Part shown: piece by piece, positions 7,227 to 44,947 of the stretch
How the letters are laid out: each line of letters begins with the position of its first letter
Numbering within the stretch: the stretch's first letter is position 1
Assembly (NCBI GenBank): GCA_018817515.1
Contig: JAHIUD010000067.1
Location: 1-64,000, forward strand
Reading direction: 5' to 3'
Source of the DNA: Pseudomonadota bacterium
GTDB taxonomy: Bacteria; Desulfobacterota; Desulfovibrionia; Desulfovibrionales; Desulfovibrionaceae
Length of the DNA stretch: 64,000 bases
Translations under genes and position numbers: made by a program
Notes under the pieces: model-generated
Seen by the model: only the letters and a program-made list of their open reading frames with translations
Database searches by the model: none
What the model was told of the DNA's origin: nothing

Positions 7227-7289
7227 GTCTGAATGTTTGGCCCACAGTTTGCTATCGCATGCGCAACGCCTTCCAAACCGGAGTGCTGC

Positions 7290-8795: not shown

Positions 8796-8847
8796 TTCTT
8801 CGGACAGGTCCTCCGCTCTCGAATCCTCTCCTTCCGCAGTTCCTTAT

Positions 8848-8859: not shown

Positions 8860-8934
8860 GGCAAGCGCTCGCTTTGCAGCTTTCATCCTATTCCCGCGTT
8901 CAGGCACTCAGTCTGAGATTCTGGACAAGGCCCG

Positions 8935-8981
8935 CTGTAACAGACCGCCGCGAACTGTAATATTGGCGTAACACGCCGACA
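8935..8981. promoter_or_regulatory. Small dyads close upstream of the lactate sigma-54 promoter
   Basis: CTGTAACAG (8935-8943) is a 4+1+4 palindrome and GGCGTAACACGCC (8965-8977) is a 5+3+5 inverted repeat. TGTAAT recurs at 8956-8961 between them. They sit 25-70 bases before the -24 element and could bind an accessory regulator or a bending protein. No family consensus was recognised. Confidence 0.25.
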
Positions 8982-9002: not shown

Positions 9003-9017
9003 TGGCACGCATGTTGC
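9003..9017 (+). promoter_or_regulatory. Sigma-54 promoter of the lactate operon
   Basis: TGGCACGCATGTTGC matches the -24/-12 consensus TGGCACG-N4-TTGC at every defined base, with GG and GC ten bases apart. A transcription start near 9029 is predicted, giving a leader of about 57 bases before glcD. The gene just upstream encodes a sigma-54 activator. Confidence 0.9.
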
Positions 9018-10465: not shown

Positions 10466-10474
10466 GGGGCAGCC

Positions 10475-11764: not shown

Positions 11765-11804
11765 CGGAAGGTCCTCTCCCGGCGTCGGCGTTCTCGCCCC
11801 CCAG

Positions 11805-11816
11805 CCCCCCCCCCCC
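11805..11816 (+). repeat. Homopolymer of twelve C in the cscF-pta spacer
   Basis: Twelve consecutive C residues lie in the 109-base gap between cscF and pta. Such a tract is prone to slippage and to sequencing error. It is not in a coding region, so length changes would alter only the spacer. Confidence 0.9.
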
Positions 11817-11873
11817 AAATAACGCCGCCGCCGGGAGACTCCATGGAAGCCAAACAACATCAAGGAGAGTATT

Positions 11874-13979
11874 GTGGCTGACACTTTATTCGTCACCGGA
11901 GTTGAACCGCGCAGTGGCAAGTCCGCCATTGTGCTGGGCCTCATGCAGCTCCTCCTGCGCGACATTCAGAAAGTGGCGTTCTTCCGGCCCATCATCAACT
12001 CCTCCGAGGTCACGGCCAAGGATCACGACATCAACCTCGTGCTCAACCAGTTCAACCTGGACATGCGCTATTCCGAGACCTTCTCCTTCACCATGCAGAA
12101 GGCGCGTGAGATGATCAACCAGGGCCAGCACGAGGCCCTGCTCGAAAAAATCCTGAACGACTTCAACTCGCTCAAGGGCCGCTTCGACTTCATCCTCTGC
12201 GAGGGCACGGACTTCCTGGGTTCGGACCCGGCGTTCGAGTTCGACACCAACGCCGACATCGCCGCCAACCTGGGCTGCCCTGTGCTGCTGGTGTGCAATG
12301 CGCAGAAGAAGACCCAGGAGGAGGTCGTGGCCTCCTCGCTCTTGACCATTGAATCCTTCGAGGACAAGGGCCTGGACATCCTGGCCGCCATCATCAACCG
12401 CGTGGAGGATGTGGAAGGCCAGAACATGGTGGAGGAGCTTCGCCAGAAGATCCGCTGCCCGGAATGCTTCCCCATCTACGTCATCCCCGAGGAGTCGAAG
12501 CTCGGCAAGCCCACCGTGGCCGATGTGGTCAAGTGGCTGGACGCCCGCGTGCTCTACGGCGGCGACATGCTCTCAAACCTCGTGGACTCCTACGTCATCG
12601 CGGCCATGCAGCTGGGCAACTTCCTCGACTACATCGAGCGCGGCAGCCTGGTCATCACCCCCGGCGACCGGTCGGACATCATCCTGGGCAGCCTGGCCTC
12701 GCGGCTTTCCACAAACTATCCCGACATTTCCGGCATCCTGCTCACCGGCGGGCTCGACCCCTCCGAATCCGTGCGCAGGCTCATCGAGGGCTGGGTGGGC
12801 GCGCCCATCCCCATCCTCATTGCCGAGGGCCACACCTACAAGACCGCGCGCATCCTGTACGACTTGTACGGGCGCATTGAGCCCGGCGACCAGAACAAGA
12901 TCCAGTCGGCGCTGCGCGTGTTCGAGGAGCATGTGGACCTGCCCGAGCTCAGAACCAAGCTCGTGGCCGCCAAGCCCACCACCGTGACGCCGAAGATGTT
13001 CGAGTTCAGCCTCATCCTCAAGGCCAAGGCCATGAAGCAGCACATCGTCCTGCCCGAGGGCACCGGCGAGCGCATCATGCGCGCGGCCGACATCCTGCTC
13101 CGGCGCGGCGTGTGCGACATCACCCTGCTCGGCAAGGAAGTGGACATCCGCACCAAGATGAGCCAGCTGAACCTGGAGCTTGAGGGCGTCCAGATCGTGG
13201 AGCCCGGCAAGTCCAAGCACTACGAGGAGTATGTTCAGACGTACTACGAATTGCGCAAGCACAAGGGCATCCGCGAGGAGGACGCCCGCGACCGCATGCT
13301 CGACCCGACCTTCTACTCGACCATGATGGTCCACAAGGGCCACGCCGACGGCATGGTCTCCGGGTCCATCACCACCACCCAGCAGACCATCCGCCCGGCC
13401 TTTGAGATCATCAAGACCAGGCCCGGCTCCCGCATCGTCTCCAGCGTCTTCTTCATGTGTCTGAAGGACCGTGTGCTGGTCTACGGCGACTGCGCCGTGA
13501 ACCCCAACCCCACGGCCGAGGAGCTTGCCGAAATCGCGGTGCGCAGCGCCGAGACCGCCCAGCTCTTCGGCATCGAGCCGCGCATCGCCATGCTCTCCTA
13601 TTCCACCGGCGCCTCGGGCAAGGGCCTGGACGTGGAGAAGGTCATCAAGGCCACCGCGCTCGCCCATGAGCTCGCCCCGGAACTGCTGTTGGAAGGCCCG
13701 CTGCAGTACGACGCCGCCGTGGACATCGAGGTGGCCCACACCAAGATGCCCGACAGCGCCGTGGCCGGCCGCGCCACCGTGTTCATCTTCCCGGACCTGA
13801 ACACCGGCAACAACACCTACAAGGCCGTGCAGCGCTCCGCCCAGGCCGTGGCCATCGGTCCTGTGCTCCAGGGCCTGAACAAGCCCATCAACGACCTCTC
13901 GCGCGGCTGCACCGTGCCGGACATCGTCAACACCGTCGCCATTACCGCCATCCAGGCCCAGGCAGTGAAGAAGGACTAA
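11874..13979 (+). CDS. pta: Phosphate acetyltransferase, long form
   Basis: A 701-residue Pta converting acetyl-CoA and phosphate to acetyl phosphate. The N-terminus is a dethiobiotin-synthetase-like P-loop domain (TGVEPRSGKS near residue 8), the middle is a DRTGG domain (about 215-330), and the C-terminal third (about 380-700) is the catalytic PTA_PTB domain with GSRIVSSVFFM and SYSTGASGKG. This is the long enterobacterial-type architecture. The start is a GTG at 11874 with a strong AAGGAGAG four bases before it. ackA begins nine bases after the stop, so the two are co-translated or nearly so. Confidence 0.96.
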   Translation: MADTLFVTGVEPRSGKSAIVLGLMQLLLRDIQKVAFFRPIINSSEVTAKDHDINLVLNQFNLDMRYSETFSFTMQKAREMINQGQHEALLEKILNDFNSLKGRFDFILCEGTDFLGSDPAFEFDTNADIAANLGCPVLLVCNAQKKTQEEVVASSLLTIESFEDKGLDILAAIINRVEDVEGQNMVEELRQKIRCPECFPIYVIPEESKLGKPTVADVVKWLDARVLYGGDMLSNLVDSYVIAAMQLGNFLDYIERGSLVITPGDRSDIILGSLASRLSTNYPDISGILLTGGLDPSESVRRLIEGWVGAPIPILIAEGHTYKTARILYDLYGRIEPGDQNKIQSALRVFEEHVDLPELRTKLVAAKPTTVTPKMFEFSLILKAKAMKQHIVLPEGTGERIMRAADILLRRGVCDITLLGKEVDIRTKMSQLNLELEGVQIVEPGKSKHYEEYVQTYYELRKHKGIREEDARDRMLDPTFYSTMMVHKGHADGMVSGSITTTQQTIRPAFEIIKTRPGSRIVSSVFFMCLKDRVLVYGDCAVNPNPTAEELAEIAVRSAETAQLFGIEPRIAMLSYSTGASGKGLDVEKVIKATALAHELAPELLLEGPLQYDAAVDIEVAHTKMPDSAVAGRATVFIFPDLNTGNNTYKAVQRSAQAVAIGPVLQGLNKPINDLSRGCTVPDIVNTVAITAIQAQAVKKD

Positions 13980-13988
13980 CAGACCGTC

Positions 13989-15200
13989 ATGAATATACTT
14001 GTCATCAATTCCGGCAGCTCCTCCATCAAATACCTGCTGCTCGACATGCGCACCGAGGCGGTGCTCTGCTCTGGAGCCGTGGAACGCATCGGCGAGGAGA
14101 TGGGCAACCTGAGCCACAAGATCGCTCCCGGCACTATGGGCGAGAGCCAGGTCAGCCTGAGCGAGCCCATTGCCAATCACGAGAAGGGCATGCATCTGGT
14201 CATCGCGCTCATCACCGATCCTGAGCGCGGCGTTGTCAAGAGCAAGGACGAGATCACCGCCATCGGCCACCGCATCGTGCAGGGCGGCGATCTGTTCACG
14301 GCGTCCTGCCTGGTGGACGACGAGGTCGTGGCGGGCCTGGAGAAGCTGGTGCCGCTGGCGCCCGTGCACAACCCCGGGCATCTGGCCGGCATCCGCGTGG
14401 CCCGGGAGCTGTTCCCCGGCACCCCGCAGGTCACGGTGTTCGACACCGTGTTCCATCAGACCATGCCGCCGCGGGCCTTTATGTACGCCTTGCCCTACGA
14501 ACTCTACGATGAGCTCAAGCTGCGGCGCTACGGCTTCCACGGCACCTCCCACTGCTACGTCACCAAGGAGGCGGCGAAGTTCCTGGGCAAGCCGGTGGAT
14601 GACGTGAACCTCATCACCGTGCACCTGGGCAACGGCAGCTCCATGTGCGCCGTGCAGGGCGGCAAGAGCGTGGACACGAGCATGGGCCTCACGCCGCTTG
14701 AGGGGCTGATCATGGGCACCCGCTGCGGCGACACGGACCTGGCCATCTATCCGCTGCTTGAGGCGGCCAAGGGCCTGAACATTACCGAGATCAACGACTT
14801 GACCAACAAGAAGAGCGGCTTCAAGGGCATTTGCGGCATGAACGATCTGCGCGACATCCACAAGGCCGTGGCCGAGGGGAACGCGCGGGCCAGGCTCGCC
14901 CTGGACATGTTCGGCTACCGCAACCGCAAGTACATCGGTTCTTACATGGCGGTGCTTGGCCGCGTGGACGCCATCGTGTTCACGGCCGGCATCGGCGAGA
15001 ACGATCCTGTCTCGCGCGAGCTGTCTTGCCGGGGGCTTTCGGCCCTGGGCGTGGAGCTCGACCATGAGCGCAACCAGTCTGGGGAGCGGGGCGCGCGCGA
15101 CATCGGCGCCAAGTCTTCCAAGGTGCGCGTTCTGGTGATTCCCACCAACGAGGAGTTGGAGATCGCCAGGCAGACGGCTGAGGTGCTGCGGGCCCGTTAA
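13989..15200 (+). CDS. ackA: Acetate kinase
   Basis: A 403-residue acetate kinase of the ASKHA fold that makes ATP from acetyl phosphate, the substrate-level phosphorylation step of lactate oxidation. Visible signatures are the N-terminal phosphate loop NSGSSSIKY, the catalytic-region motif YGFHGTSH, the adenosine-region HLGNGSSMCA and the C-terminal VFTAGIGEND. The length is normal for the family. It sits directly after pta and before the lactate permease, from which it is separated by a perfect hairpin at 15229-15259. Confidence 0.97.
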   Translation: MNILVINSGSSSIKYLLLDMRTEAVLCSGAVERIGEEMGNLSHKIAPGTMGESQVSLSEPIANHEKGMHLVIALITDPERGVVKSKDEITAIGHRIVQGGDLFTASCLVDDEVVAGLEKLVPLAPVHNPGHLAGIRVARELFPGTPQVTVFDTVFHQTMPPRAFMYALPYELYDELKLRRYGFHGTSHCYVTKEAAKFLGKPVDDVNLITVHLGNGSSMCAVQGGKSVDTSMGLTPLEGLIMGTRCGDTDLAIYPLLEAAKGLNITEINDLTNKKSGFKGICGMNDLRDIHKAVAEGNARARLALDMFGYRNRKYIGSYMAVLGRVDAIVFTAGIGENDPVSRELSCRGLSALGVELDHERNQSGERGARDIGAKSSKVRVLVIPTNEELEIARQTAEVLRAR

Positions 15201-15228
15201 GAGATATCGGCGAAAACCCCGTGCGGAT

Positions 15229-15259
15229 AGTTGTCCGTCGCGGGAAGCAACGGACAACT
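15229..15259 (+). terminator. Intercistronic hairpin between ackA and lldP
   Basis: AGTTGTCCGT (15229-15238) and ACGGACAACT (15250-15259) form a perfect 10-bp stem with an 11-base loop, followed by TTTA. It ends just before the AAGGAGGAG ribosome-binding site of lldP. It could be a weak terminator, an RNA-processing site or a 3'-end stabiliser that lets ackA and lldP levels differ. Confidence 0.6.
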
Positions 15260-15279
15260 TTACTGCAAGGAGGAGTCTT

Positions 15280-16941
15280 ATGGATCCAATGGTGGCACAG
15301 GCAGTTGAAACCTGGAAACAGGTCTACACGCCCATCGGTGATGGCGGCTACATTCTTCCTGCCTTGGTGGCAGGCATCCCGCTCTACATTCTGTTCTACA
15401 TGCTCGCGGTGCGCCGCGCCAAGGGCCATTTCGCCGCGGGTGTCGCGCTCCTGGCCGCCATCGGCATCTCCGTCGCCATGTGGGGCATGCCCGCCAAGCT
15501 GGCGATCTCGTCCACGCTTTACGGCGCCGCCATCGGCATCTTCCCCATTTGCTGGATCGTCATCACGGCCATCTGGGTCTACAACATGACGGTTGAGTCG
15601 GGGCAGTTCGAGGTCATCAAAACCTCGTTGGCCTGCGTCACCGAGGACCGCCGCCTACAGGCCATCCTCATCGCCTTTGCCTTCGGCTCCTTCATCGAGG
15701 GCACCGCAGGCTTCGGAACCCCGGTGGCCATCACCGCGGCCATGCTGGTCGGCCTCGGGTTCAACCCGCTGTACGCGGCCGGTTTGTGCCTCATCGCCAA
15801 CACCGCGCCCGTGGCCTTCGGCGCCCTGGGCATCCCCATCATCGCCGTGGCCGAGCTGACCAAGATCGACCTCATGAAGATCAGCGCCATCGTTGGCCGC
15901 CAGCTGCCTTTCCTGTCCATCATCGTGCCCCTGTGGCTGTCCGTCACCATGTGCGGTTTCAAGCGTTCCATGGAGATCCTGCCCGCCATCATCGTGGCTG
16001 GCGTGTGCTTCGCCGGTTCGCAGTTCGTGGTGTCCAACTACGTCGGCCCGATGCTGCCTGACGTCATCTCGGCCATCGTGACCATCGTGGGCATGTTTGC
16101 CTTCCTCAAGGTCTGGAAGCCCAAGACCATTTGGCGCTTTGAAGACGAGCCCGCCACCACCGGCCCGGCCGTCTGCCACTACAGCTCGAGCGAAGTCCTG
16201 CGCGCCTGGATGCCGTGGCTCGTGCTGGCCGTCGCGGTCTTTGTCTGGGGCCTCAAGGACGCCCAGGCCATCCTGAACACCGTGACCATGAAGCTCGACT
16301 GGCCCGCCCTGAACAACCTGGTCATCAAGACCGTGCCCATCGTCTCCGCCGACAAGGCCTACGGCGCCGTGTTCAAGTTCAACTGGCTGTCCTCGCCCGG
16401 CTCCGCCGTTTTCGTGGCCGGCCTCCTGTCCATCTTCGTCCTGCCGAACTACAGCGCTGGCAAGGCCTTTGGCTGCTTCTTCCGCACCATCAAGCAGCTG
16501 CGCTTCCCCATCGTGACCATCGCCATGATCGTTGGCCTGGCCTACATCATGAACTACTCCGGCATGAGCTCCTCGCTGGGCCTCGCCTTCACGCTGACGG
16601 GCAGCTGGTTCCCGTTCTTCGCGCCGATCATCGGCTGGTTGGGCGTGTTCCTGACTGGTTCCGACACCTCGTCGAACCTGCTCTTCGGCAGCCTGCAGCA
16701 GACCACCGCCAACCAGATTGGTGTTGACCCGGCCCTGTGCGTGGCCGCCAACTCCTCGGGCGGCGTCACCGGCAAGATGATCTCCCCGCAGTCCATCTCC
16801 GTGGCCACCGCCGCCGCGAACATGGTCGGCCAGGAGGGCAACCTGTTCCGCTTCACCCTCAAGCATTCCATCGCCATGTTGCTCGTGGTCTGCGTACTGA
16901 CGTACCTGCAGGCCTACACCCTGAGCTGGATGCTGCCGTAA
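15280..16941 (+). CDS. lldP: L-lactate permease
   Basis: A 553-residue polytopic inner-membrane protein of the LldP/LctP family (Lactate_perm), proton-coupled importers of lactate and related 2-hydroxyacids such as glycolate. The chain is a succession of hydrophobic helices with family signatures such as FGSFIEGTAGFGTPVAITAA in the first half and GSDTSSNLLFGSLQ and NSSGGVTGKMISPQSI in the second. A very strong ribosome-binding site (AAGGAGGAG) precedes the ATG. It is the entry step for the dehydrogenases encoded on either side of it. Confidence 0.96.
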   Translation: MDPMVAQAVETWKQVYTPIGDGGYILPALVAGIPLYILFYMLAVRRAKGHFAAGVALLAAIGISVAMWGMPAKLAISSTLYGAAIGIFPICWIVITAIWVYNMTVESGQFEVIKTSLACVTEDRRLQAILIAFAFGSFIEGTAGFGTPVAITAAMLVGLGFNPLYAAGLCLIANTAPVAFGALGIPIIAVAELTKIDLMKISAIVGRQLPFLSIIVPLWLSVTMCGFKRSMEILPAIIVAGVCFAGSQFVVSNYVGPMLPDVISAIVTIVGMFAFLKVWKPKTIWRFEDEPATTGPAVCHYSSSEVLRAWMPWLVLAVAVFVWGLKDAQAILNTVTMKLDWPALNNLVIKTVPIVSADKAYGAVFKFNWLSSPGSAVFVAGLLSIFVLPNYSAGKAFGCFFRTIKQLRFPIVTIAMIVGLAYIMNYSGMSSSLGLAFTLTGSWFPFFAPIIGWLGVFLTGSDTSSNLLFGSLQQTTANQIGVDPALCVAANSSGGVTGKMISPQSISVATAAANMVGQEGNLFRFTLKHSIAMLLVVCVLTYLQAYTLSWMLP

Positions 16942-16965
16942 CCCCAAACCCTTAAGCCTCTCCGG

Positions 16966-16998
16966 AGCCGGGCCGCCCATGATTGGGTTGGCCCGGCT
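16966..16998 (+). terminator. Hairpin after the lactate permease
   Basis: AGCCGGGCC (16966-16974) pairs perfectly with GGCCCGGCT (16990-16998) over a 15-base loop. There is no U-tract, so it is more likely a partial terminator or mRNA-end stabiliser than a full stop, since lutC and lutB follow on the same strand. Confidence 0.45.
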
Positions 16999-17105
16999 TC
17001 AACACAAATTTCCGGCCCGCCCCAATGTGGACGGCCGAACCCGGCGGAAGAAGGCCGCACAAGCGCCGCCGCCAAAGCCTGCAACGAGAATTACGAGGTG
17101 CGACC

Positions 17106-17732
17106 ATGAGCGACAAAGCGCGACTTGCTGATTTGATGGCGGAGAAGGCTGGGCTTGTTTCGGCCATCGTCACCCGGATCAAGACCCTGGACGAGGCCTT
17201 TGCCTACACCCTGGACGTGTGCGACAAGAAGGAAGCCTGCCAGCTTCTGCCCTCTGGCTGCGAGGCGGACCTCTCCGCTGGCGCCGGCGCTCTCTGCGAC
17301 GCCAAGCTCGGCAAGATCATCGCCGCGCCCGGACTCCCTGCCGAGGCCGCCAAGGCCTTGGGCGACGCCTGCTCCGCGCAGGGCGTCACCTTCATCACCC
17401 AGGGCATGCGCTCGCACCTCTCCGGCGTGGACATCGGCTTCACCATCGCCGAGGCGGCCATAGCCGAGACCGGCACCTGCGTGCTCGACTCCAAGAGCGA
17501 GGAGCTGCGCCTAGCCACCATGATCTGCGAAGTGCACGTCTGCGTGGTGGCGACCTCAAGCATCCGCGAGACCAGCTCCGAGGTCGAGAGCCTGCTGCGC
17601 ACCCTTTGCAAGGACGCGCCCGGCTATGTCGCCTTCATCACCGGCGCCTCGCGCACGGCGGACATCGAGCGCGTGCTGGCCATCGGCGTGCACGGCCCGC
17701 TTGAACTGCACATTCTGCTTCTGGAGGACTAG
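17106..17732 (+). CDS. lutC: LUD-domain protein, LutC-like lactate utilisation subunit
   Basis: A 208-residue LUD (DUF162) protein related to LutC/YkgG. Its conserved part includes GVDIGFTIAEAAIAETGTCVLDS and the ending FITGASRTADIERVLAIGVHGP. In Bacillus, LutABC together oxidise L-lactate to pyruvate; the separate LUD subunit is needed for that activity. The ATG at 17106 follows GAGGTG. It lies three bases from lutB, so translation is probably coupled. The D. vulgaris counterpart is DVU3032. Confidence 0.92.
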   Translation: MSDKARLADLMAEKAGLVSAIVTRIKTLDEAFAYTLDVCDKKEACQLLPSGCEADLSAGAGALCDAKLGKIIAAPGLPAEAAKALGDACSAQGVTFITQGMRSHLSGVDIGFTIAEAAIAETGTCVLDSKSEELRLATMICEVHVCVVATSSIRETSSEVESLLRTLCKDAPGYVAFITGASRTADIERVLAIGVHGPLELHILLLED

Positions 17733-17735
17733 GCC

Positions 17736-19886
17736 ATGCAGAACGCACGTGATCTCAAGGAATACAAGGGCGAGCTTAACGGCGCGCTGGGCAACGAGTT
17801 TCTGCGCACCGCCATGGACAACTTCGCCATGGCCTACCGCGTGAGCCGCGCCAAGGCCTTTGCGGGCATGGACGTGGAGGGGCTGGTGCAGGACATCGCC
17901 CGTGGCAAGGACCAGGCCATGGCCCGCATGGACGAGCTCTTCGAGGAATTCAAGAAGCAGGCCGAGCGCCAGGGCGTCACCGTGCATGTGGCCAAGACCG
18001 GCCAGGAAGCCAACGAGATCATCGGTCGCATCGCGGAGAAGGCGGGCGTCAAGCGCATCGTCAAGTCCAAGTCCATGACCGCCGAGGAGACGCTGCTGAA
18101 CCACTACCTTGAGGACATGGGCCTCAACGTGGTGGAGACCGACCTCGGCGAGTGGATCATCCAGCTGCGGCACGAGGGTCCGACGCACATGGTCATGCCC
18201 GCCATCCACCTCTCGCGCTATCAGGTGGCCGAGCTGTTCAGCGATGTCACCGGCACCAAGCAGGAGGGCGACATCCAGAAGCTGGTCAAGGTCGCCCGGC
18301 GCGAGCTGCGCGCCAAGTATGTGCAGGCCGAGATGGGCATCTCCGGCGGCAACTTCGCCATCGCCGAGACCGGCACCATCGCCCTGTGCACCAACGAGGG
18401 CAACGCCCGCCTGGTGACGACCCTGCCGCGCGTGCACGTGGCCCTCGTCGGCCTGGACAAGCTCACCCCGACCATCAACGACGCCCTGCGCGTCATCAAG
18501 GCCCTGCCGAGAAACGCCACGGGCCAGGCCATCACCTCCTACGTCACCTGGATCACCGGGCCTGGCGAGTGCGGGGCCTCCCCGGACGGAAAGAAGGAGA
18601 TGCACGTGGTCTTCCTGGACAACGGGCGGCGCGCCCTGGCCAAGGACCCGGTGTTCTCCCAGGTGCTCCGCTGCGTGCGTTGCGGCGCCTGCGCCAACGT
18701 CTGCCCGGTGTACCGCCTGGTGGGCGGGCACCAGTACGGCCACATCTACATCGGGGCCATCGGCCTCATCCTGACCTACTTCTACCATGGCCGCGAGAAG
18801 GCCAAGAACCTCGTGCAGAACTGCATCAACTGCGGGGCCTGCAAGGCCGTGTGCGTGGGCGGCATCGATCTGCTCAGGCTCATCAAGGAGGTCCACGCCC
18901 GCATCCAGGACGAGGAGGGCCACCCGCTCCAGAGCCAGCTCCTGGGCATGGTCTTGAAGAACCGCAAGATGTTCCACACGCTGCTGCGCTCGGCCCGGGC
19001 CGTGCAGAAGCCGGTCACCGGCGGCACCCCGTACCTGCGCCACCTGCCCATGATCTTCGCGCGCGGGCAGGAGTTCCGGGCCCTTCCGGCCATCGCCGAG
19101 AACGCCTTCCGCGACCAGTTCGAGGCCCTGAAGCCCCGTGTGGCCACCCCGAAGTACCGCGTGGCCCTGTTCTCCGGCTGCGTGCAGGACTTCGTGTACC
19201 CGGAGCAGGCCGTGGCCGCCGTGAAGATCCTGGCCAAGCACAACGTGGCCGTGGACTACCCCATGGGCCAGTCCTGCTGCGGCCTGCCGGTGCAGATGAT
19301 GGGCGAGCGCGAGGCCAGCCGTTCCGTGGCCGCGCAGAACGTTACGGCCTTTGATCCCGCCGGATACGACTACATCCTGACCCTGTGCGCCTCCTGCGCC
19401 TCGCACCTGAAGCATGGCTACCCGGATATCCTGGGCAAGGACCCCAAGCTGGCGGTGAAGGTGCAGCAGTTTGCCGACCGCGTCATCGACTTCAGCTCCT
19501 TCGTGCACGACGTGCTGAAGGTCGAGCCCGCGGAGTTCCGCGCGGACGGCAAGAAAGCCACCTACCACGCGCCTTGCCACCTCTGCCGTGGCCTGGGCGT
19601 CACCAAGGCCCCGCGTGAGCTCATCGTCACCGGCGGCCTGGAGTATCTGCCCGCCGACGAGGAGGACGTGTGCTGCGGCTTTGGCGGCACCTACTCCATG
19701 AAGTTCCCGGAACTTTCCGCGGAACTGCTGAAGAAAAAGCTTGCGAACGTGGAAAAAACCGGCGCAGAAGTGTTGCTTACGGACTGCCCCGGCTGCATCA
19801 TGCAGCTGCGCGGCGGGCTTGAGGCCAAGGGCAGCCGCCTTGAGGTCCGCCACGTGGCCGAGGCCCTGGCCGACCGGCTCAAGTAG
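17736..19886 (+). CDS. lutB: L-lactate dehydrogenase Fe-S subunit, LutB with fused LutA-like CCG domain
   Basis: A 716-residue protein. The N-terminal half (to about 300) is a LUD domain with the GISGGNFAIAETGTI block. Next come ferredoxin motifs (CVRCGACANVCP near 311 and CINCGACKAVC near 361; the latter lacks the usual Pro). The C-terminal part carries two CCG motifs (CCGLPVQM near 513, CCGFGGT near 645), which in Bacillus are on the separate LutA. It therefore combines LutB and LutA in one chain and should act with LutC as the L-lactate dehydrogenase, passing electrons to the membrane. The D. vulgaris counterpart is DVU3033. Confidence 0.92.
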   Translation: MQNARDLKEYKGELNGALGNEFLRTAMDNFAMAYRVSRAKAFAGMDVEGLVQDIARGKDQAMARMDELFEEFKKQAERQGVTVHVAKTGQEANEIIGRIAEKAGVKRIVKSKSMTAEETLLNHYLEDMGLNVVETDLGEWIIQLRHEGPTHMVMPAIHLSRYQVAELFSDVTGTKQEGDIQKLVKVARRELRAKYVQAEMGISGGNFAIAETGTIALCTNEGNARLVTTLPRVHVALVGLDKLTPTINDALRVIKALPRNATGQAITSYVTWITGPGECGASPDGKKEMHVVFLDNGRRALAKDPVFSQVLRCVRCGACANVCPVYRLVGGHQYGHIYIGAIGLILTYFYHGREKAKNLVQNCINCGACKAVCVGGIDLLRLIKEVHARIQDEEGHPLQSQLLGMVLKNRKMFHTLLRSARAVQKPVTGGTPYLRHLPMIFARGQEFRALPAIAENAFRDQFEALKPRVATPKYRVALFSGCVQDFVYPEQAVAAVKILAKHNVAVDYPMGQSCCGLPVQMMGEREASRSVAAQNVTAFDPAGYDYILTLCASCASHLKHGYPDILGKDPKLAVKVQQFADRVIDFSSFVHDVLKVEPAEFRADGKKATYHAPCHLCRGLGVTKAPRELIVTGGLEYLPADEEDVCCGFGGTYSMKFPELSAELLKKKLANVEKTGAEVLLTDCPGCIMQLRGGLEAKGSRLEVRHVAEALADRLK

Positions 19887-19914: not shown

Positions 19915-20928
19915 ATGAAGGACGTGCGCAAGACGGCCCGCGAACTCATGAATGGGTATTGCAAGGTTTGCCCCATTTGCAACGGCAAGGCTTGCGCCGG
20001 GGAGGTCCCCGGCATGGGCGGCCTGGGCACTGGCTCCTCGTTCATGAACAACGTCGCGGCCCTGGCGCAGGTGCGCTTCAACATGCGGCTGATCCACGGG
20101 GCCGAGATTCCGGACACCTCGACCACGCTGCTCGGCCGCAAGCTGTCCATGCCCGTGCTGGCCGCGCCCATCGGCGGCGTGTCCTTCAACATGGGCGGCA
20201 AGATCACCGAGCAGGAATACTGCGATGCGGTGCTCGGCGGGTGTGTGGACAAGGGCGTTCTGGGCTGCGTGGGCGACGGCGTGCCGCCGTTCATCCACGA
20301 GTCCGGCTTCGCCACCATTCAGGCCCTGGGCGGTGCTGGCATCCCCTTCATCAAGCCCTGGGAAGACAAGGAACTCTACGAGAAGCTGGACCGGGCCGTA
20401 GCCACCGGCGCGGACATCGTGGGCATGGACATCGACGCCGCCGGGTTGGTGACCCTGCGCCTCATGGGGCGGCCCGTTGGTCCCAAGCCACTGGAAAAGC
20501 TCAAGGACATCATTGGCCATGTGCCCGCCAGATTCGTCCTCAAGGGTGTCATGACCCCGGACGACGCCAAACGGGCCGTGGACGCCGGGGCTGCGGGCCT
20601 CGTGGTCTCCAATCACGGCGGGCGGGTGCTGGACCATACGCCCGGAACCGCCGAGGCCCTGCCTGCCGTGGCCGCCGCGGTGAAGGGCCAGATCGCCATC
20701 CTGGTGGACGGCGGCGTGCGCACCGGCGGCGATGTGCTGAAGATGCTGGCCCTGGGAGCGGACGCCGTGATGATCGGCCGCCCCTTCTGTACTGCCGCCC
20801 TGGGCGGCCTGCGCGAGGGCGTGGGCAAGTACCTGGACCAGGTGCGCGGGGAGTTGGCCCAGGCCATGATCCTCACCGGGTGCGCCAGCGTTGCCGACGC
20901 TGACCGCAACATCCTGTTCGGGGCCTAG
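19915..20928 (+). CDS. FMN-dependent alpha-hydroxy-acid dehydrogenase-like protein
   Basis: A 337-residue FMN_dh (lactate oxidase/glycolate oxidase family) TIM barrel. Expected landmarks are visible: the Lys in [15 protein letters not shown], the active-site His region [10 protein letters not shown], and the phosphate-binding [20 protein letters not shown]. The N-terminus is unusual, with [22 protein letters not shown] supplying four cysteines within a short span, which might bind a metal or Fe-S cluster. A CGGAGGT site precedes the ATG at 19915. It follows lutB by 28 bases, so it is probably a further 2-hydroxyacid-oxidising enzyme in the lactate operon. Its true substrate and electron acceptor are unknown. 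Confidence 0.88.
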
Positions 20929-20938
20929 GAGGCGTCAT

Positions 20939-22453
20939 ATGGGAGAGCGAGGAACCGACCCCCTGCGAGCCGGGGGCGTGGCCGCCGTGGCGGCAGTGAC
21001 TTTTCTGCTATTCCTTGGACTTGTCTCTGCTCTTGAAATGTCTCGTTCAGCCGATACCTTCCGGCTGGGGCTGCCGCACTTCGCGGCGGCCCTTCTTTTT
21101 TCCGGCCTGGCCGCGCTTGCGCTGGCCTTTCGCGAACGCGCCCTGGCCAGGCGCCTGGAGTCGGACGCTTTGCAGTCCGCCCAGACGGCTGCGGAGCTGA
21201 AGCACCAGACCGGCCTGGCCCAGGGCATCCTCGGCGGTCTGCCGGTGCCCTTCCTGCTGGTGGACGAGCAGGAGCGAGCCGTGTGCTCCAACATGGAATG
21301 CCTGCAGATGCTTGAGCTCGACGGCAAGCCCCAGGACTACTACGGCCAGACCCTGGCCCAGATCTTCTACAACGATCCCGGTCGCAAGACCGCTGTCGGC
21401 AGGAGCATCAAGGACGGCGAGGTGTTCCGCAATCTTGAGGTGGCCATCAAGGGCCACAAGGGCGGCACGCGCAACGTGCTGGCCAACGTCTTCGCCCTTC
21501 ACGACTCCGACCGCCGCTGCATTGGCGGGCTGTGCCTGTACCTGGACATGACCGCGCTCAAGCAGAAGGAGCAGTCCCTCATCTCCAAGGACGAGAGCAT
21601 CAGCCAGACCGCGCTGGACGCCAACGCCCTGTGCGCCCGCCTGCGCGACGCCTCGGCCCGGCTCTCGACGACCATCAGCCATACCACGCAGGGAAGCGAG
21701 GCCCAGAAGGTGCGCGTGGGCGAGATCGGCGTGTCCATGGATCAGATGGGCATCGCCGTGGTCGACGTGGCCAAGAACGCCTCCTCGGCCTCCCAGGGCG
21801 CGGACGCGGCCCGCCAGCAGGCGGAGCAGGGCCAGCGCGTCGTAGCCGAGGTCATCACGGCCATCCACGGCGTGTCTGAGCGCACCCAGGCCATGCAGGA
21901 GCGCCTCACGGAGCTCGGCGGCCAGGTGGCTGGCATTGCGCAGATCCTGAACGTCATCAACGACATCGCCGACCAGACCAATCTGCTTGCGCTCAACGCC
22001 GCCATCGAGGCCGCGAGAGCAGGCGACGCCGGGCGCGGGTTCGCCGTTGTGGCCGACGAGGTGCGCAAGCTGGCCGAGAAGACCATGACCGCCACCAAGG
22101 AGGTGGCCCAGGCCATCGGCTCGGTGCAGGATGGCGCGCGCCGCGCCTCCGAGGGCATGACTGGCGCTGTCGAGGCCGTCAACACCAGCACAACCCTGGC
22201 TGACAGCGCCGGACAGGCGCTGCATGAGATCCTGCGCATCTCGCAGGGCTCGGCGGACCAGGTGCGAAACATAGCCACGGCTTCGGAAGAGCAGTCCGCC
22301 TCGGCGGAGGAGATTTCCCGGGCCGTGGACCAGGTACGCACGGTTTCCGACCAGACGGCCCAGGACATGGTTCAGGCCACCCAGGCCGTGGAGGAGTTGG
22401 CGCGGCTGGCCGACGAGCTCACGGATATCATCACCAAGATGCAGACCTGCTGA
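20939..22453 (+). CDS. Methyl-accepting chemotaxis protein with cytoplasmic PAS domain
   Basis: A 504-residue chemoreceptor. Two hydrophobic segments (about residues 12-32 and 42-62) leave only a few periplasmic residues between them. A PAS-like domain (about 95-205) follows, then the signalling coiled coil with the highly conserved tip [20 protein letters not shown] and [16 protein letters not shown]. With so little outside the membrane, sensing is probably internal, for instance of redox state or a metabolite. The AGGAGG ribosome-binding site overlaps the stop of the preceding gene, so it is translated as part of the lactate operon. Confidence 0.93.
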
Positions 22454-22794: not shown

Positions 22795-22820
22795 TGATCG
22801 CCCTGTCTCTCTTTCCTTAG

Positions 22821-22850
22821 AGCGGCCCGGTTTTCGGGCCGCTTGCTTTT
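22821..22850 (+). terminator. Intrinsic terminator of the lactate operon
   Basis: AGCGGCCCG (22821-22829) and CGGGCCGCT (22835-22843) form a perfect 9-bp stem with a GTTTT loop, followed by TGCTTTTGCTT. It lies 27 bases after the Dabb gene stop. Confidence 0.85.
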
Positions 22851-32215: not shown

Positions 32216-32257
32216 ATTAATAAAAGAGGCCCCGGAACGTTTGTCCCGGGGCCTCTT
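32216..32257 (-). terminator. Intrinsic terminator of the pyruvate:ferredoxin oxidoreductase gene
   Basis: On the minus strand a perfect 12-bp stem (AAGAGGCCCCGG with CCGGGGCCTCTT, arms 32224-32235 and 32246-32257) is followed by TTTATTAAT. It lies 26 bases after the por stop. Confidence 0.9.
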
Positions 32258-32282: not shown

Positions 32283-35972
<3,690 letters not shown>

Positions 35973-36017
35973 CTATTGGTAGCGTGCTTCAGGACGTAGA
36001 TCAAAAATAAAGACTTG

Positions 36018-36032
36018 GCAACTTGTGTGCCA
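36018..36032 (-). promoter_or_regulatory. Sigma-54 promoter of por
   Basis: On the minus strand TGGCACACAAGTTGC has the -24 TGGCAC and -12 TTGC elements with the same five-base spacing as the lactate operon promoter at 9003. Transcription would start near 36006, about 70 bases before the ATG. The rest of the 349-base divergent region to sulP holds a dyad at 36190-36205 and an imperfect TTTTCG/CGAAAA palindrome near 36110-36125, but no gene. Confidence 0.85.
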
Positions 36033-36189
36033 AAAAGAACGAGATAATTTTTAGTGTAATAATGCAGTGTGTTGTGTGGTCAGCCGTGTAAAAATGAGCC
36101 AAAGTTGCCCGTTTTCGTCCGAAAAATCGGCCAGTTCCAAAAGGGTTGCAAGGCCGGACTGGCATGGCTTTGCGGGGGAAATATGGTCC

Positions 36190-36205
36190 GTCCGGTGAAC
36201 CGGAC
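36190..36205. promoter_or_regulatory. 16-bp palindrome, candidate enhancer for por
   Basis: GTCCGGTGAACCGGAC is a perfect dyad (7+2+7). Its core CCGGT-N2-ACCGG is the same as the dyad at 8848-8859 before the lactate operon. Its centre is about 167 bases upstream of the -24 GG of por. It is also about 90 bases upstream of sulP, so a role in sulP control is an alternative. Confidence 0.6.
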
Positions 36206-36285
36206 AAGTTCAGGCTGGCGCCCAGGGCTTTCTTGGGCTACGTAAGACAAAGATTGGGGAATACCGCGAACGCGCCGGGAGAAGC

Positions 36286-38142
36286 ATGGAGCAGTGTGAG
36301 TTCACTCCGCCCAAAGGTCCCTGGGCCAGGAAATCCGACCAGTTGCTGGACCAGCTGAGGGGGCTGCTACCCTTCCTCGCCTGGTGGCCCCAGGTGAACA
36401 GGCGCACGCTCAAGGCCGATCTTTGGGCCGGGCTCACGGGTGCGGTCATCGTGCTGCCCCAGGGCGTGGCCTTCGCAGCCATCGCCGGCCTGCCTCCGGT
36501 CTACGGACTCTATGCGGCCATGGTGCCGGTGGTCATCGCTGCACTGTTCGGCTCGTCCTACCACTTGGTCTCCGGCCCCACCACTGCCATCTCGCTGGTC
36601 ATCTTCGCCAACATCAGCCGCTTGGCCGATCCCGGCAGCGCGGAGTACATCCGCTTGGTGCTGACTCTGACCCTGCTGACCGGCATGTTCCAACTGGGGC
36701 TGGGCCTGGCGCGGCTGGGCGTGGTGGCCAATTTTGTCTCGCATTCCGTGGTCACGGGCTTCACCGCCGGGGCCGCCATCCTTATCGCCACCAGCCAGCT
36801 GGGCACCTTTCTTGGGCTGGACCTGCCGCGCGGCGGCACCTTCCTGTCCACCTGGGGCAACATGCTGCACTCCCTGCCCGAGGCCAATCTCTACGTGCTC
36901 GGCCTGGGCGCCTTCACCATGCTCCTGGCTCTTATCATCCAGCGATTCCTGCCCCGCTGGCCGAAGCTCCTGCTGGCACTGATTGTGGCCAGTCTGCTGA
37001 GCTTCGCCGTGGACGGCCCGAAGCACGGGGTGCTGCTGGTGGGCGCGCTGCCAGCAGGCTTGCCGCCCTTCACCCTGCCTGATTTCGGTTTTGCCGACCT
37101 GCGGCGGCTTGTGCCTGGAGCGCTGGCCGTGGCCATGCTCGGCCTGGCCGAGGCCGTAAGCATCGCCCGGGCGGTGTCCACGCGCTCCCAGCAGATGATC
37201 GACAACTCGCGCGAGTTTGTGGGCCAGGGCCTGGCAAACGTGCTCGGCAGCCTGTTTTCGGCCTATGCCTCGTCGGGTTCCTTCACACGCACGGGGCTGA
37301 ACTTCGAGTCCGGTGCCAAGACCCCGCTGGCCGCCGTATTCTCGGCCCTGCTGCTGGTGTGCATCGTGCTGCTGGTGGCTCCGCTTACGGCCTATCTGCC
37401 TGTGGCGGCCATGTCCGGGGTCATCCTGTTGGTGGCGGTGAACCTGCTGGACCTGCACGGCATTCGGCACATTATCCGCACGGACAAGAACGAAACCGGA
37501 ATCCTTGCCGTGACCTTCCTGGCCATCCTCTTTGTGCAGATGGAGTTCGCCATCTTCTCCGGCGTCATCCTCTCGCTCTTGATGTACCTCAAGCGCACCT
37601 CGCACCCGAATTTTACTGTGCTGGCCCCGGACCCGCAGAACCCGCGCCATCCCTTGGTCAACGTGGCCCGCAAGGAACTCAAGGAGTGCCCGCAGATCAA
37701 GATCCTGCGCCTGGACGGGAGCATATTCTTCGGCGCGGTGAACCACATCTCCGAAGAGCTGCACCGGGTCATGAACAAGTTCCCGGAACAGTGCCACATC
37801 CTCATCGTGGGCGGCGGCATCAACTTCATTGACGCCAGCGGCTGCCACATGCTCTTCAACGAGGCCTTGAGCCTCAAACTCTCCGGCCGTGACATGTTTT
37901 TCTGCTCGCTCAAGGAGGAGGTGCTGGAGATGCTCCGGCGCGGCATGTGCCTGAAACGCCTGGGCGGCGAGCACATCTTCGAGTCCGAGGGGCTGGCCAT
38001 CGCGCATATGGTGCCCCGGCTCGACCCGGAGCGCTGCGCCTGCTGTTCGGCCAGGGTGTTCCTCGAATGCGACCGCATGCCCGGCGGCGAGGAGCACGAC
38101 CACTACCCGCCGCACGATACCCCGCAGAGCGGCGGCTCGTAA
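36286..38142 (+). CDS. SulP-family anion transporter with STAS domain
   Basis: A 618-residue inner-membrane transporter of the SLC26/SulP family. The early signature VVLPQGVAFAAIAGLPPVYGLY-type region is near residues 52-75, followed by many hydrophobic helices. A cytoplasmic STAS domain follows (about 465-570, with ILRLDGSIFFGAVNHI and the GINFIDASGCHML helix). Family members import sulfate, bicarbonate or dicarboxylates; sulfate uptake is plausible in a sulfate reducer but is not demonstrated by the sequence. The short tail is rich in Cys, His and Asp. The ATG has GGGAG five bases upstream. It is divergent from por. Confidence 0.92.
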   Translation: MEQCEFTPPKGPWARKSDQLLDQLRGLLPFLAWWPQVNRRTLKADLWAGLTGAVIVLPQGVAFAAIAGLPPVYGLYAAMVPVVIAALFGSSYHLVSGPTTAISLVIFANISRLADPGSAEYIRLVLTLTLLTGMFQLGLGLARLGVVANFVSHSVVTGFTAGAAILIATSQLGTFLGLDLPRGGTFLSTWGNMLHSLPEANLYVLGLGAFTMLLALIIQRFLPRWPKLLLALIVASLLSFAVDGPKHGVLLVGALPAGLPPFTLPDFGFADLRRLVPGALAVAMLGLAEAVSIARAVSTRSQQMIDNSREFVGQGLANVLGSLFSAYASSGSFTRTGLNFESGAKTPLAAVFSALLLVCIVLLVAPLTAYLPVAAMSGVILLVAVNLLDLHGIRHIIRTDKNETGILAVTFLAILFVQMEFAIFSGVILSLLMYLKRTSHPNFTVLAPDPQNPRHPLVNVARKELKECPQIKILRLDGSIFFGAVNHISEELHRVMNKFPEQCHILIVGGGINFIDASGCHMLFNEALSLKLSGRDMFFCSLKEEVLEMLRRGMCLKRLGGEHIFESEGLAIAHMVPRLDPERCACCSARVFLECDRMPGGEEHDHYPPHDTPQSGGS

Positions 38143-41317: not shown

Positions 41318-41611
41318 GGGGGCAGTACAGTGCATGCTGGCGCACCGTCCACGGATGCATGGCAAGCGTTGATTCCATCGCTAGGCTGCTTGTTGTTTTT
41401 GCTGTCTGTTCAGCGAATATGTATTGCAGTAGCGATTATGATGAATTATCTTTATTTATCTAGTGGGCTTGCGAATTGCCAGTGCTCAGGAGGTTATCAG
41501 CATAACGGGCCGCTTTTTATATCCCTCAAGCCCTCGGCCCAATCTTTATTGCTTGGCCGATCTGCAACCGCGTCGCATGCTCTGCGATGCCATACGCTGA
41601 GGGTGAATTCT
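41318..41611. other. AT-richer leader of the Cache/PAS kinase
   Basis: These 294 bases have lower GC than their surroundings. The frame of the following gene is open through them, but the translation looks random and lacks a signal or domain. I see no clear promoter hexamer pair, riboswitch or small gene. Confidence 0.4.
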
Positions 41612-44600
41612 ATGCCTTTGAATAAACTGGACAAGCTTCATACCCGAATATTCGCCATCGTCCTCTTGGCCATGCTGCCAGTGCTCATCATGGCCCTGTT
41701 CATCGCCAAGGACCGCTACCAGGAGGCCAAGGCCAACGCTTTGAGCGCCAGCCGCCAACTGGCCTTGCAATATTCCCGCGAAGGCATGGCCCTGTTCGAC
41801 AGGGTCCTCTTGCAGATGTCCGACCTCGCCGCATCCCCTGAGGTCAAGACCCAAAACAGTGCGGCCTGCACAGAGATCTTCAGGATCCATAGCCGTGTGC
41901 ACCCCGCCTACGGCGCCATCGTTTTGAGCCGTCCGGACGGCAGTCTCGTCGCCAGCTCCATGCGGCAACCTGACACGAAATCCTTGGCCACGCAGAGATG
42001 GTTCCATGATGCCGTTCGCAACAAGACCCTTACTCTCGGCGCGTATCAAGACGCCAAGAACGGCGAGCCTGCGCGCCTGCCCCTGGCCCTTCCGGTGCTG
42101 GCCCCGGACGGCTCGGTACTCTCCGTGTTGAGCATCTCTCTTGACCTGAGGGTCTTGGCCGACCTGCTGGATGACTTGTCACTGCGCGAAGGCGTTGCGG
42201 TGTCCGTCATCGACCGCTTCGGGGTGATCCTCGCCCGTTTCCCCGCCGCCCCCAATGCCGTTGGCGAATCCGCGCCCGCTGCGGAGACGTTCCTGCCCGG
42301 TTACGCGCCCGATGGGCTGAATACCTGGGAGGCCAAGGGCGTGGACGGCATGTCGCGCCTCTATTACCTTGCCTCGCTGCTCAAGCAGGACAGGATGGGC
42401 CTCTTCCTGCGCATAGGCATGCCCAAGGCGCAGGTTCTTGCCGCCGTGGACCACGGGCTCGTCCGGGACCTTTCTTTCATCGCCGCCATGACCGTCCTCG
42501 CCTTTTTCATCACAGGGCTCTTCAGCAACGCCTTCGTGCTGAAGCAGGTGCGGCAGCTCTGGCAGGCGACCAAGCTGATGTCCGAGGGTGATTACGGCCA
42601 CCGCATCGGCGCAACCGGCAGCGGCGAGCTGATTGAGCTGTCCATGGCCTTTGACGGCATGGCCGATGTTCTGGAATCCAAGACAAACAGGCTGGCCACG
42701 GCGGAGCGCAAATTCCGGAAGATCTTTGAGCATTCCGTCAACGGCATCTTTCAGACCACCCCGGAGGGGCGTATTCTGGAGGCCAACCCGGCCCTGGCAA
42801 GTATGCTCGGCTACGAGTCCCCGGAGGCATTGATCCACAGCGTCAGCGACATCGCCACACAGCTCTATGCCGAACCCGGGATACGCGAGGAGGTCCTGCT
42901 GCGTCTGAGCCGGGACGGTGTGGTCTCTGGCTTTGAGATGCCCGCCAAACGAGCCAACGGAGAGCGCATCTGGGTGTCGCTCAACGTGCACGTCGTCCGT
43001 AACAACGATGGAGGCATCGGCTATCTTGAGGGCTCCGCCGAAGACATCACCTATCGCAAGATGATCGAAGAGGACCTGAAGAGACAACAGGAAAAGCTCC
43101 AGGCCCTGCTGGACTATTCCCCGGCCATGATCAACATCCGGGACGGCAAGGGGAACTACATTCTCGGCAACCGCATCCACCAGGATGTGCATGGCCTGGG
43201 CCAGGAGGTCCTCGGCAAGGGCGTGGACGACCTTTTCCCCCCAGAGGTGGCGCGGCGCATCCTTGAGGAAGATCGTCAGGTCCTCGCCGAGGGCAAGGCC
43301 TTGACCTTTCAGCGTCCCTTGCGAATCCAGGGGGTCGAGCGGCATTTCCTGACCGTCAAGTTCCCGCTGTTCAACGAGTTCGGCCAGCCTGACCGGATAT
43401 GCAGCATCGCCTACGACATCTCGGAATACGAGCAGGTGCGCGAGGCCCTGCGCCAGAGCGAGGAGAAGTACCGGACCATGATCCAGACCTCGCCGGACCT
43501 GATCTGGATGTTCGACCCCAAGGGCTATATACTGGAGGCCAACAACGCCAGCCGCGACCTGCTGGGCTATGAGCCCGAGGAGCTGCGCGGCATGCACCTG
43601 CAGAACCTCTTTCACCCGGACGATGCGCGGGCCCATGACCGCGAGCTGCTGCTGTCACAGCTTGTGGGGCACGGGGAAAAGAGGCAGCCGCCCCCTGCCT
43701 TGATCAATGAGCGCAGACAACTGCCAAGGGGCACCCGGGACTTGACCGTGCGTCTGCTGCCAAAGCCCAACGGCCGCCAGGCGCCGCAGCCGCGCCATTT
43801 CGAGCTGTCCTCCTGCGGGCTGTGGCGGAACATGACCTTCCTCGGCACCATGGCGGTGATCCGGGACGTCACCAAGCGCAGGAAGGCCGAGCTGGCCCTG
43901 CGCGAAAGCCAGGACCTGCTGGCGTACGCCCAGTCCCTCGGCAAGATTGGCGGCTGGGCCATCAACCTCGAAACAAAAGAGAGCAAATGGACCGACGAGG
44001 TCTTTCATGTGCTTGGATATAAGGGTCGGAATGTTCCAACGGTTGACGAGGGAGTAGTACTCTTCGCGCCTGAGGACAGGGCGCGGTTCCTCGAGGCCAT
44101 GCGCAAGGCCGAGCTGGGCGAATCCCTCGACCTGGAGCTGCGCCTGGCGCAACGCGACACCAGCCAGCGCTGGGTGCGGATCATGGGCAGGATCCAGGAC
44201 AGGGAGGGCGTCCGGATGCTGGGCGGCCTGGTGCAGGACATCACGGACAGCAAGAATCTGGAGCTCCTGCGCGATGACATCGACAACATCATCCGGCATG
44301 ATTTGAAGACGCCGCTCAACGGCATCATCAACCTTCCCCAGATCATCATGGCCGGTTCGAACCTGAACCAGGATCAGATCGAGTGTCTGGGCTACATCGA
44401 AATGAGCGGCAGGAAGATGCTGCGCCAGGTGGAGATGGCCCTCGACATCATGAAGATCGAGCGCGGAAACTTCCAGTTCCAGCCCTATACCCTTGACCTC
44501 TTGGAGATCTGCCGGGTCATCATCCAGGAGCTGCGGGAATCCGTGGAACGCAAGAGGCTCGCCATGGAAGTCCTGCTCCAGGGCGAGCCGGTTGCGGACT

Positions 44601-44947
44601 ATGCCAGCTTCGAGGTGAGCGGCGAGGAGCGGCTCTGTTTCCCCATGCTTGCAAACCTGTTCGCCAACGCCATCGAGGCCTCGCCAGCCGGCGAACGCAT
44701 CACGGTCAACATGACCGCTGGCGAGGAGCATGTCGTGAGCATCCGCAACATGGGACCGGTTCCCCTGGACATTCGCGAGCGGTTTTTCGAAAAGTTCGTG
44801 ACCAGCGGCAAGACCAAGGGCACGGGGCTTGGCACCTACTCGGCCTGGCTCTTCGCCAAGGCCCAGGGCGGATCCGTGGAGCTGGACGCCTCCGAGGAAG
44901 GGGCGACCACCGTGGTGGTGCGCCTGCCCAAGGCGACTGTCCACTAG
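41612..44947 (+). CDS. Membrane sensor histidine kinase with Cache, HAMP and four PAS domains
   Basis: About 1111 residues. A first membrane helix (about 12-32) and a second (about 288-312) enclose a periplasmic Cache-like domain. A HAMP segment (about 312-360) and four PAS domains (starting near 365, 496, 615 and 765) follow. The kinase core has a HisKA-like motif NIIRHDLKTPLNGII (His about 896) and an HATPase domain with NLFANAIEA and TKGTGLGTYSA. There is no receiver domain. I chose the ATG at 41612 because GAGGGTGA lies six bases upstream and the first helix follows at once. The ligand and partner regulator are unknown. Confidence 0.92.
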   Translation: MPLNKLDKLHTRIFAIVLLAMLPVLIMALFIAKDRYQEAKANALSASRQLALQYSREGMALFDRVLLQMSDLAASPEVKTQNSAACTEIFRIHSRVHPAYGAIVLSRPDGSLVASSMRQPDTKSLATQRWFHDAVRNKTLTLGAYQDAKNGEPARLPLALPVLAPDGSVLSVLSISLDLRVLADLLDDLSLREGVAVSVIDRFGVILARFPAAPNAVGESAPAAETFLPGYAPDGLNTWEAKGVDGMSRLYYLASLLKQDRMGLFLRIGMPKAQVLAAVDHGLVRDLSFIAAMTVLAFFITGLFSNAFVLKQVRQLWQATKLMSEGDYGHRIGATGSGELIELSMAFDGMADVLESKTNRLATAERKFRKIFEHSVNGIFQTTPEGRILEANPALASMLGYESPEALIHSVSDIATQLYAEPGIREEVLLRLSRDGVVSGFEMPAKRANGERIWVSLNVHVVRNNDGGIGYLEGSAEDITYRKMIEEDLKRQQEKLQALLDYSPAMINIRDGKGNYILGNRIHQDVHGLGQEVLGKGVDDLFPPEVARRILEEDRQVLAEGKALTFQRPLRIQGVERHFLTVKFPLFNEFGQPDRICSIAYDISEYEQVREALRQSEEKYRTMIQTSPDLIWMFDPKGYILEANNASRDLLGYEPEELRGMHLQNLFHPDDARAHDRELLLSQLVGHGEKRQPPPALINERRQLPRGTRDLTVRLLPKPNGRQAPQPRHFELSSCGLWRNMTFLGTMAVIRDVTKRRKAELALRESQDLLAYAQSLGKIGGWAINLETKESKWTDEVFHVLGYKGRNVPTVDEGVVLFAPEDRARFLEAMRKAELGESLDLELRLAQRDTSQRWVRIMGRIQDREGVRMLGGLVQDITDSKNLELLRDDIDNIIRHDLKTPLNGIINLPQIIMAGSNLNQDQIECLGYIEMSGRKMLRQVEMALDIMKIERGNFQFQPYTLDLLEICRVIIQELRESVERKRLAMEVLLQGEPVADYASFEVSGEERLCFPMLANLFANAIEASPAGERITVNMTAGEEHVVSIRNMGPVPLDIRERFFEKFVTSGKTKGTGLGTYSAWLFAKAQGGSVELDASEEGATTVVVRLPKATVH

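Follow-up and report, generated by a model that had tools for sequence, protein, structure and literature searches.

The product of por is a central enzyme of pyruvate oxidation, and the hosts considered here are sulfate-reducing bacteria. Sigma-54 promoters follow the consensus TGGCAC-N5-TTGC, whose GG and GC elements stand at a fixed spacing. The closest described system is the luo operon of Desulfovibrio vulgaris Hildenborough (DVU3025-3033), a set of nine genes with por at its head (PMC4481167), as the first-pass annotation of the present DNA had stated. In the portion of that account available to us, a predicted sigma-54 promoter precedes por, as it does here, and the transcript starts 12 bp after the -12 element (PMC4481167). 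According to the accessible parts of a second study, the regulator is LurR (DVU3023), with DVU3025-3033 and DVU2451 as its targets; its sites are 16-bp palindromes, GTCYG-N6-CRGAC, and it binds before por (PMC6456213). In a lurR deletion mutant por and ack fall about 2-fold during growth on lactate, with no such drop on pyruvate (PMC6456213).

The locus described here lies in a stretch of 64,000 nucleotides from a member of the Desulfovibrionaceae (the window), and like the D. vulgaris operon, as far as the available account of the latter extends (PMC4481167), it includes por, lldP, dldA, dldB, pta, ack, lldG and lldH. What differs is the arrangement: instead of being the first gene of a nine-gene transcript, por is separate, oppositely oriented and probably transcribed as a single gene. 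The luo operon without por occupies 9086-19886 on the plus strand, as judged from NCBIfam matches and from its order versus relatives, with dldA starting at 9086, dldB at 10475, pta at 11874, ack at 13989, lldP at 15280 and lldG at 16983, followed by lldH at 17736-19886. Upstream of it, lurR (7233-8795, plus strand) encodes an NtrC-type response regulator with a receiver, an AAA+ domain that keeps GAFTGA and a Fis-type HTH; its true start is probably slightly downstream of the annotated position 7233. A LurR orthologue of this composition encoded beside the lactate genes is a likeness to the published regulon, within the coverage of its two sources (PMC6456213; sigma-54 regulome, PMC4641369), and a lurR orthologue precedes luo or por across the family. 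Unlike in that regulon, in which a neighbouring lurS is common without being defining, the lurS kinase gene is not found beside lurR in this genus. Instead, the gene before lurR in the window codes for a DEAD-box helicase, as it does in 8 of the 9 other genus loci read; none was seen in L138.

por itself (32283-35936, minus strand) encodes a full-length pyruvate:ferredoxin oxidoreductase (PFOR) of 1217 amino acids (it scores 1956 bits on TIGR02176, where the cut-off is 911) and is the only PFOR match in its own genome (G000). Directly 3' of the gene lies a terminator-like hairpin with a 15-bp stem and a T tail (32224-32257, minus strand), assigned by stem length and place; terminator-like sites number 5 in the window versus 4.8 in shuffles, so that there is no excess by count. 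With such a hairpin immediately behind it, por is probably monocistronic. The first-pass annotation had put the gene about 10 kb downstream of the operon's end and on the opposite strand. The strands are indeed opposed; the distance stands (9.8 kb) if the operon runs to the end of a chemoreceptor (MCP) gene at 22453, but from the end of lldH (19886) it is 12.4 kb. About 12 kb past lldH, on the other strand and with a promoter and hairpin of its own, por would not be co-transcribed as the first luo gene. Where one contig holds both genes (the window, G014, G005, G001 and G008), lurR and por lie 23 to 177 kb apart. A gene for a SulP-family permease, sulP (36286-38142, plus strand; Pfam PF00916), diverges from por in all 15 genus genomes, and no tandem repeats are present at 35900-36300.

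The putative promoter of por, TGGCACACAAGTTGC, was found by pattern search as a -24/-12 box of the sigma-54 type at 36032-36018 on the minus strand, 96 bp 5' of the por ATG. It has the GG, the GC and the fixed spacing, and an rpoN gene is present in the genome. The window holds two exact matches to TGGCAC-N5-TTGC, this one and TGGCACGCATGTTGC (9003-9017, plus strand), the predicted promoter of the lactate operon. Both carry the full TTGC, whereas the D. vulgaris box has TTGT at its end and shares sequence with a predicted sigma-70 promoter (PMC4481167). That the two boxes share the same spacing, as had been pointed out in the first-pass annotation, is correct but carries no weight, because the search pattern fixes the spacing of every match. 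Counts are no more informative: with up to one mismatch the pattern occurs 3 times in the window versus 7.8 expected from shuffles, and the window count was dropped as evidence because shuffles give no fewer. The case for the por box rests on position and conservation, not on count.

That conservation is pronounced. Across 15 genomes of the genus (the window, L123-L133, L094, L095 and L097) the 15-bp box is identical, spacer included, at positions -95 to -99, which bears out the claim that a detached por has a promoter of the sigma-54 type of its own. In an alignment of the por intergenic region from these genomes (349 columns, 65 of them invariant, mean pairwise identity 56%), the longest invariant run is exactly the box (-96 to -82, 15 bp) and the next longest is 7 bp. 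The unremarkable pattern count would suit the idea of a chance resemblance, in which the 15-mer is no promoter, but invariance in 15 genomes amid divergent sequence, directly before por, makes this extremely unlikely. By this alignment the por promoter is under clear constraint, which could also reflect selection for por expression itself. The box is also held more strictly than that of luo, which is exact before dldA in L202 and in 8 of 9 other genus loci, L140 carrying CGGCAC instead, with spacer letters that vary. One weak, overlapping sigma-70-like match occurs before por (TTGGCA-18-TATTTT), and its second hexamer is unconserved in the alignment. A search for por in a scattered contig sample gave a best identity of about 70% and was left out of the counts; the exact por 15-mer was not found in one other genome of the order, a sample too small to count. 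Two shorter blocks are likewise invariant in 15 of 15 genomes: AGAGGGA (35944-35950, minus strand), the presumed ribosome-binding site, and ACGCTAC (35979-35985, minus strand) in the 5' leader. The latter sits within a wider block, ACGCTACCAAC...CCAAACC, is not seen in the aligned region of G029, a genome of another genus, and is possibly a control element acting at the RNA level.

The first-pass annotation overlooked that palindromes of the LurR type stand before both por and luo. Relative to the motif RTCYRN6YRGAC, por has a distal site without mismatches (GTCCGGTTCACCGGAC read towards por, 36190-36205) and a proximal one with 1 mismatch (GGCCGATTTTTCGGAC read towards por, 36117-36132); luo has two exact sites (GTCTGATTCTTCGGAC, 8790-8805, and GTCTGAGATTCTGGAC, 8911-8926) and another with 1 mismatch (8930-8945). 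In both cases the sigma-54 box lies downstream of the palindromes. A layout with 16-bp palindromes about 100-250 bp before the -24/-12 box is that of the LurR regulon as far as the sources at hand describe it (PMC6456213, PMC4641369), with the difference that two LurR-type promoters, not one, serve the former operon gene set here. An exact palindrome precedes por in 14 of the 15 genus genomes (none in G007), the proximal 1-mismatch site recurs near -195 in 13 of them (not in G012 and G011), and at least one exact palindrome precedes dldA in 9 of 9 genus loci and in L202. The distal por site keeps to -258 to -270 across the genus; its inner letters differ and the palindrome stays, which points to selection on the site itself.

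Taken by itself the LurR motif discriminates poorly: with 1 mismatch it occurs 117 times in the window versus 76 expected, which is weak alone, and exact matches genome-wide (179) barely exceed those to a reversed control (164). It is meaningful solely in combination with a sigma-54 box. Among 19 exact sigma-54 matches in the genome of the window, those of luo and por are the only ones preceded at 20-260 bp by a LurR palindrome without mismatches; a 1-mismatch palindrome falls in that interval at two further boxes. Over the 15 genus genomes the combined pattern gives 14 matches in 10 genomes against 1 for the reversed control; 9 are luo (by position after lurR), 4 are por and 1 lies elsewhere (G010:C51). 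The pattern misses por in 11 of 15 genomes and luo in 6; in most genomes the proximal por site is an imperfect palindrome, and some of the assemblies are incomplete.

The por-first arrangement known from D. vulgaris recurs in the family. We compared 100 stretches around por or luo, chosen from among 288 family genomes to span genera; other genera account for 80 por loci in this set. Half of those, 40 loci in 13 genera that include g39 and g4, the two nearest genera with por first, have por at the head of luo and lurR no more than about 2.5 kb before it in the same orientation. A sigma-54 box with two or fewer mismatches is found in 39 of the 40 promoters (2.97 expected from shuffles), an exact LurR palindrome in 28 (0.39 expected) and both in 27 (0.02 expected); the shuffles were made with a custom script that resorts to plain shuffling where the dinucleotide walk fails. 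Among these 40 promoters, the box terminates in TTGT in 24, like that of D. vulgaris, whereas TTGC is found in 6 (five from genus g39, and L211). The genus loci scored in the same way have the box in 11 of 11 cases and box plus palindrome in 10 of 11, and G029 has both. At 39 other por loci the box occurs in 9 (3.94 expected) and both elements in 3; this class includes por-first luo loci whose lurR escaped the strand and distance rule, and the three with both elements (L180, L187 and L190) are all of that kind.

These comparisons bear on which protein would act at the por promoter. It might depend on sigma-54 and yet be activated by a different enhancer-binding protein of the LurR/NrfR type, so that luo and por have the promoter type in common and not the signal. 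In D. vulgaris the motifs bound by NrfR and LurR are almost identical (PMC6456213), and paralogues of LurR at 46-49% identity are encoded in the genome. Such an activator is nevertheless improbable: exact LurR palindromes single out luo and por among the 19 exact sigma-54 boxes, all but one of the 14 combined-pattern matches belong to luo or por, and the lurR-adjacent por promoters of the family show a similar layout. We favour LurR as the probable activator.

How por came to stand apart is suggested by G029, the one genome of g7, the closest genus outside that of the window, in which the order is lurR-dldA-dldB-lldP-por-pta-ack-lldG-lldH. Here por lies in the middle of the operon and already has its own box, TGGCATACAAGTTGC at -86, with LurR sites, in addition to another set before dldA. 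In a tree of por, genus g4 (por first), g39 (por first), G029 (por in the middle) and the genus of the window, g1 (por off), branch in that order, with SH-aLRT values of 97-99 at these forks; the tree, built in quick mode from this single gene, does not settle 14 of its 55 inner branches. Because of this branching order, por-first is, on the por tree, the ancestral arrangement for the line of the genus and the split is derived, so that the gene-order comparison, together with the por-first arrangement behind lurR at half of the por loci read outside the genus, speaks against the ancestral split that the first-pass annotation had allowed for. Two LurR promoters probably existed before por left luo, and the promoter of por inside luo in G029 points to a departure together with the LurR module. 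The same genome helps to weigh whether the LurR-like sites serve sulP, or both genes, with por merely a neighbour. Divergence of sulP from por in every genus genome and a distal site nearer to sulP fit such a role, but no -24/-12 match with at most 1 mismatch is directed at sulP within the window, and similar sites stand before por in G029, where por is in the operon without sulP, and at por-first loci of other genera. An assignment of the sites to sulP is accordingly given very little probability, and we continue to regard them as sites of the por promoter.

Outside this line, por is found away from luo without the module. Genomes of g35 (G215), g34 (G212), g23 (G154, G155 and G151), g30 (G174) and g25 (G166) have lurR and the lactate genes together or near each other and por elsewhere. 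Upstream of por, exact LurR palindromes are missing from the genomes read of these five genera, and even the best sigma-54-like boxes differ from the consensus at 2 or more positions, mostly at 3 or 4; G174 is the exception with TGGCATGAGACCTGC (2 mismatches, -97), and its por follows genes weakly similar to dldA (41%) and dldB (30%). In G018 and G152, which have lurR, the stretch read contains no luo genes and por lacks the module, and in the g18 genomes G052, G056 and G108, which have no LurR match at 1e-140, por lies with pta and ack, again without the module. A different picture is offered by G278 (g42), in which por faces away from lurR and is preceded by TGGTACGCATCTTGT at -54 and by two LurR palindromes, both exact; pta and ack follow lurR and have a separate box and LurR sites. 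This por, truncated where the contig stops, is absent from the por tree; it looks like a separate case of por outside luo keeping the LurR module. In G047-G049 (g17), lurR is present and no PFOR match is found at 1e-200, the best being about 1e-39; in G048 luo genes follow lurR without por among them.

The first-pass annotation had read the retained promoter type as selection for joint control. Constraint on the por promoter and LurR-type palindromes at both promoters agree with this, but the five genera with por away from luo and without the module mean that joint control is, as far as gene order and promoters indicate, not required across the family. Within genus g1, joint control of por and luo is a good inference. 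Alternatively, the promoter may have moved passively with por and been kept because a single-copy, probably essential gene needs a promoter, irrespective of luo. por is a one-match gene in its genome, D. vulgaris por could not be deleted according to the available part of PMC4481167, and in other lineages a por standing away from luo lacks the module. We consider passive carriage unlikely, though less so than the alternatives above, in that the LurR palindromes, and not just the core box, have been kept amid greatly changed surroundings, and G278 appears to be a second por outside luo with a retained module. The favoured reading, which we regard as likely, is that por belongs to the LurR/sigma-54 lactate regulon and has been relocated.

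The site, the genes, their conservation and the series of gene orders can be read directly from the DNA, and a course of events can be proposed from them. In the common family state por stands behind lurR as the first luo gene, and its promoter consists of a -24/-12 box preceded by LurR palindromes. As a first step toward the genus, por would have taken up a place within the operon under a separate copy of the LurR/sigma-54 promoter, as in G029; it would then have left the operon, and would now be divergent from sulP with its own promoter and terminator. By analogy with D. vulgaris, sigma-54 RNA polymerase would wait at TGGCACACAAGTTGC, and LurR, bound about 100 and 170 bp further upstream at its two sites, would open the por promoter simultaneously with that of luo, so that PFOR and the lactate enzymes could rise together on lactate despite two transcripts. 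LurR binding, activation and a lactate response at por and luo of this genus are all projected from that organism. LurR cannot account for all of por expression: some LurR-independent expression of por is expected because PFOR is needed on pyruvate too.

The arrangement is real and well conserved, and it is a variant of the known LurR regulon rather than a new kind of system. LurR, its sites and the sigma-54 promoter of luo have already been published; the variant is the detached por unit. Among titles and abstracts, none was found that describes a detached por with its own LurR promoter; Fig. 9 and the supplement of PMC4481167, outside this coverage, may show the split. A gene that often heads the lactate operon in related genera has departed from it in g1 and kept the same type of control switch, and the two separated pieces can probably still switch on together. 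The gene orders form a nested series, from por first, to por in mid-operon with its own promoter, to por standing apart and still under that promoter. Along this series an operon of central energy metabolism breaks up while its control elements remain. It is conceivable, though we would give it rather less than even chances, that the LurR/sigma-54 control region is a portable unit with which genes exit a core energy operon and stay in the regulon, PFOR having become a stand-alone LurR gene. If so, the strict stand-alone promoter would allow PFOR to be adjusted separately from the lactate dehydrogenases. Lineages in which por stands elsewhere than luo and has no LurR control provide a ready contrast, and because they are at hand the old question of whether operons are kept for co-regulation becomes testable on one gene, por.

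Several further features deserve mention. A sigma-54 box at G000:C40:37489-37503 (minus strand; L226) equals the luo box in all 15 letters and has no LurR palindromes 20-260 bp upstream. Unlinked from lurR, a LurS-like hybrid kinase is encoded at G000:C40:22173-25187 (L247). Six LurS-like kinases compared fall into two types, four being nearest to LurS of g4 (47-50%) and the other two to LurS of g39 (about 50%), with g24 close behind. A kinase in the window (hk41, 41330-44947) was dropped as a LurS candidate, since its similarity covers no more than 270-283 residues at about 30% identity. A large fusion protein of FAD oxidase and 4Fe-4S parts, encoded ahead of the lurR region (260-3844, plus strand), is perhaps another D-2-hydroxyacid dehydrogenase. 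After lldH, an ORF without a Pfam match and then the MCP chemoreceptor gene occupy 19959-22453 (plus strand), with a terminator-like hairpin 3' of the latter at 22820-22844. The same pair stands behind lldH in L126, L136, L137 and L140, and L202 has the ORF and no MCP match; perhaps lactate chemotaxis is tied to the luo operon through this receptor.
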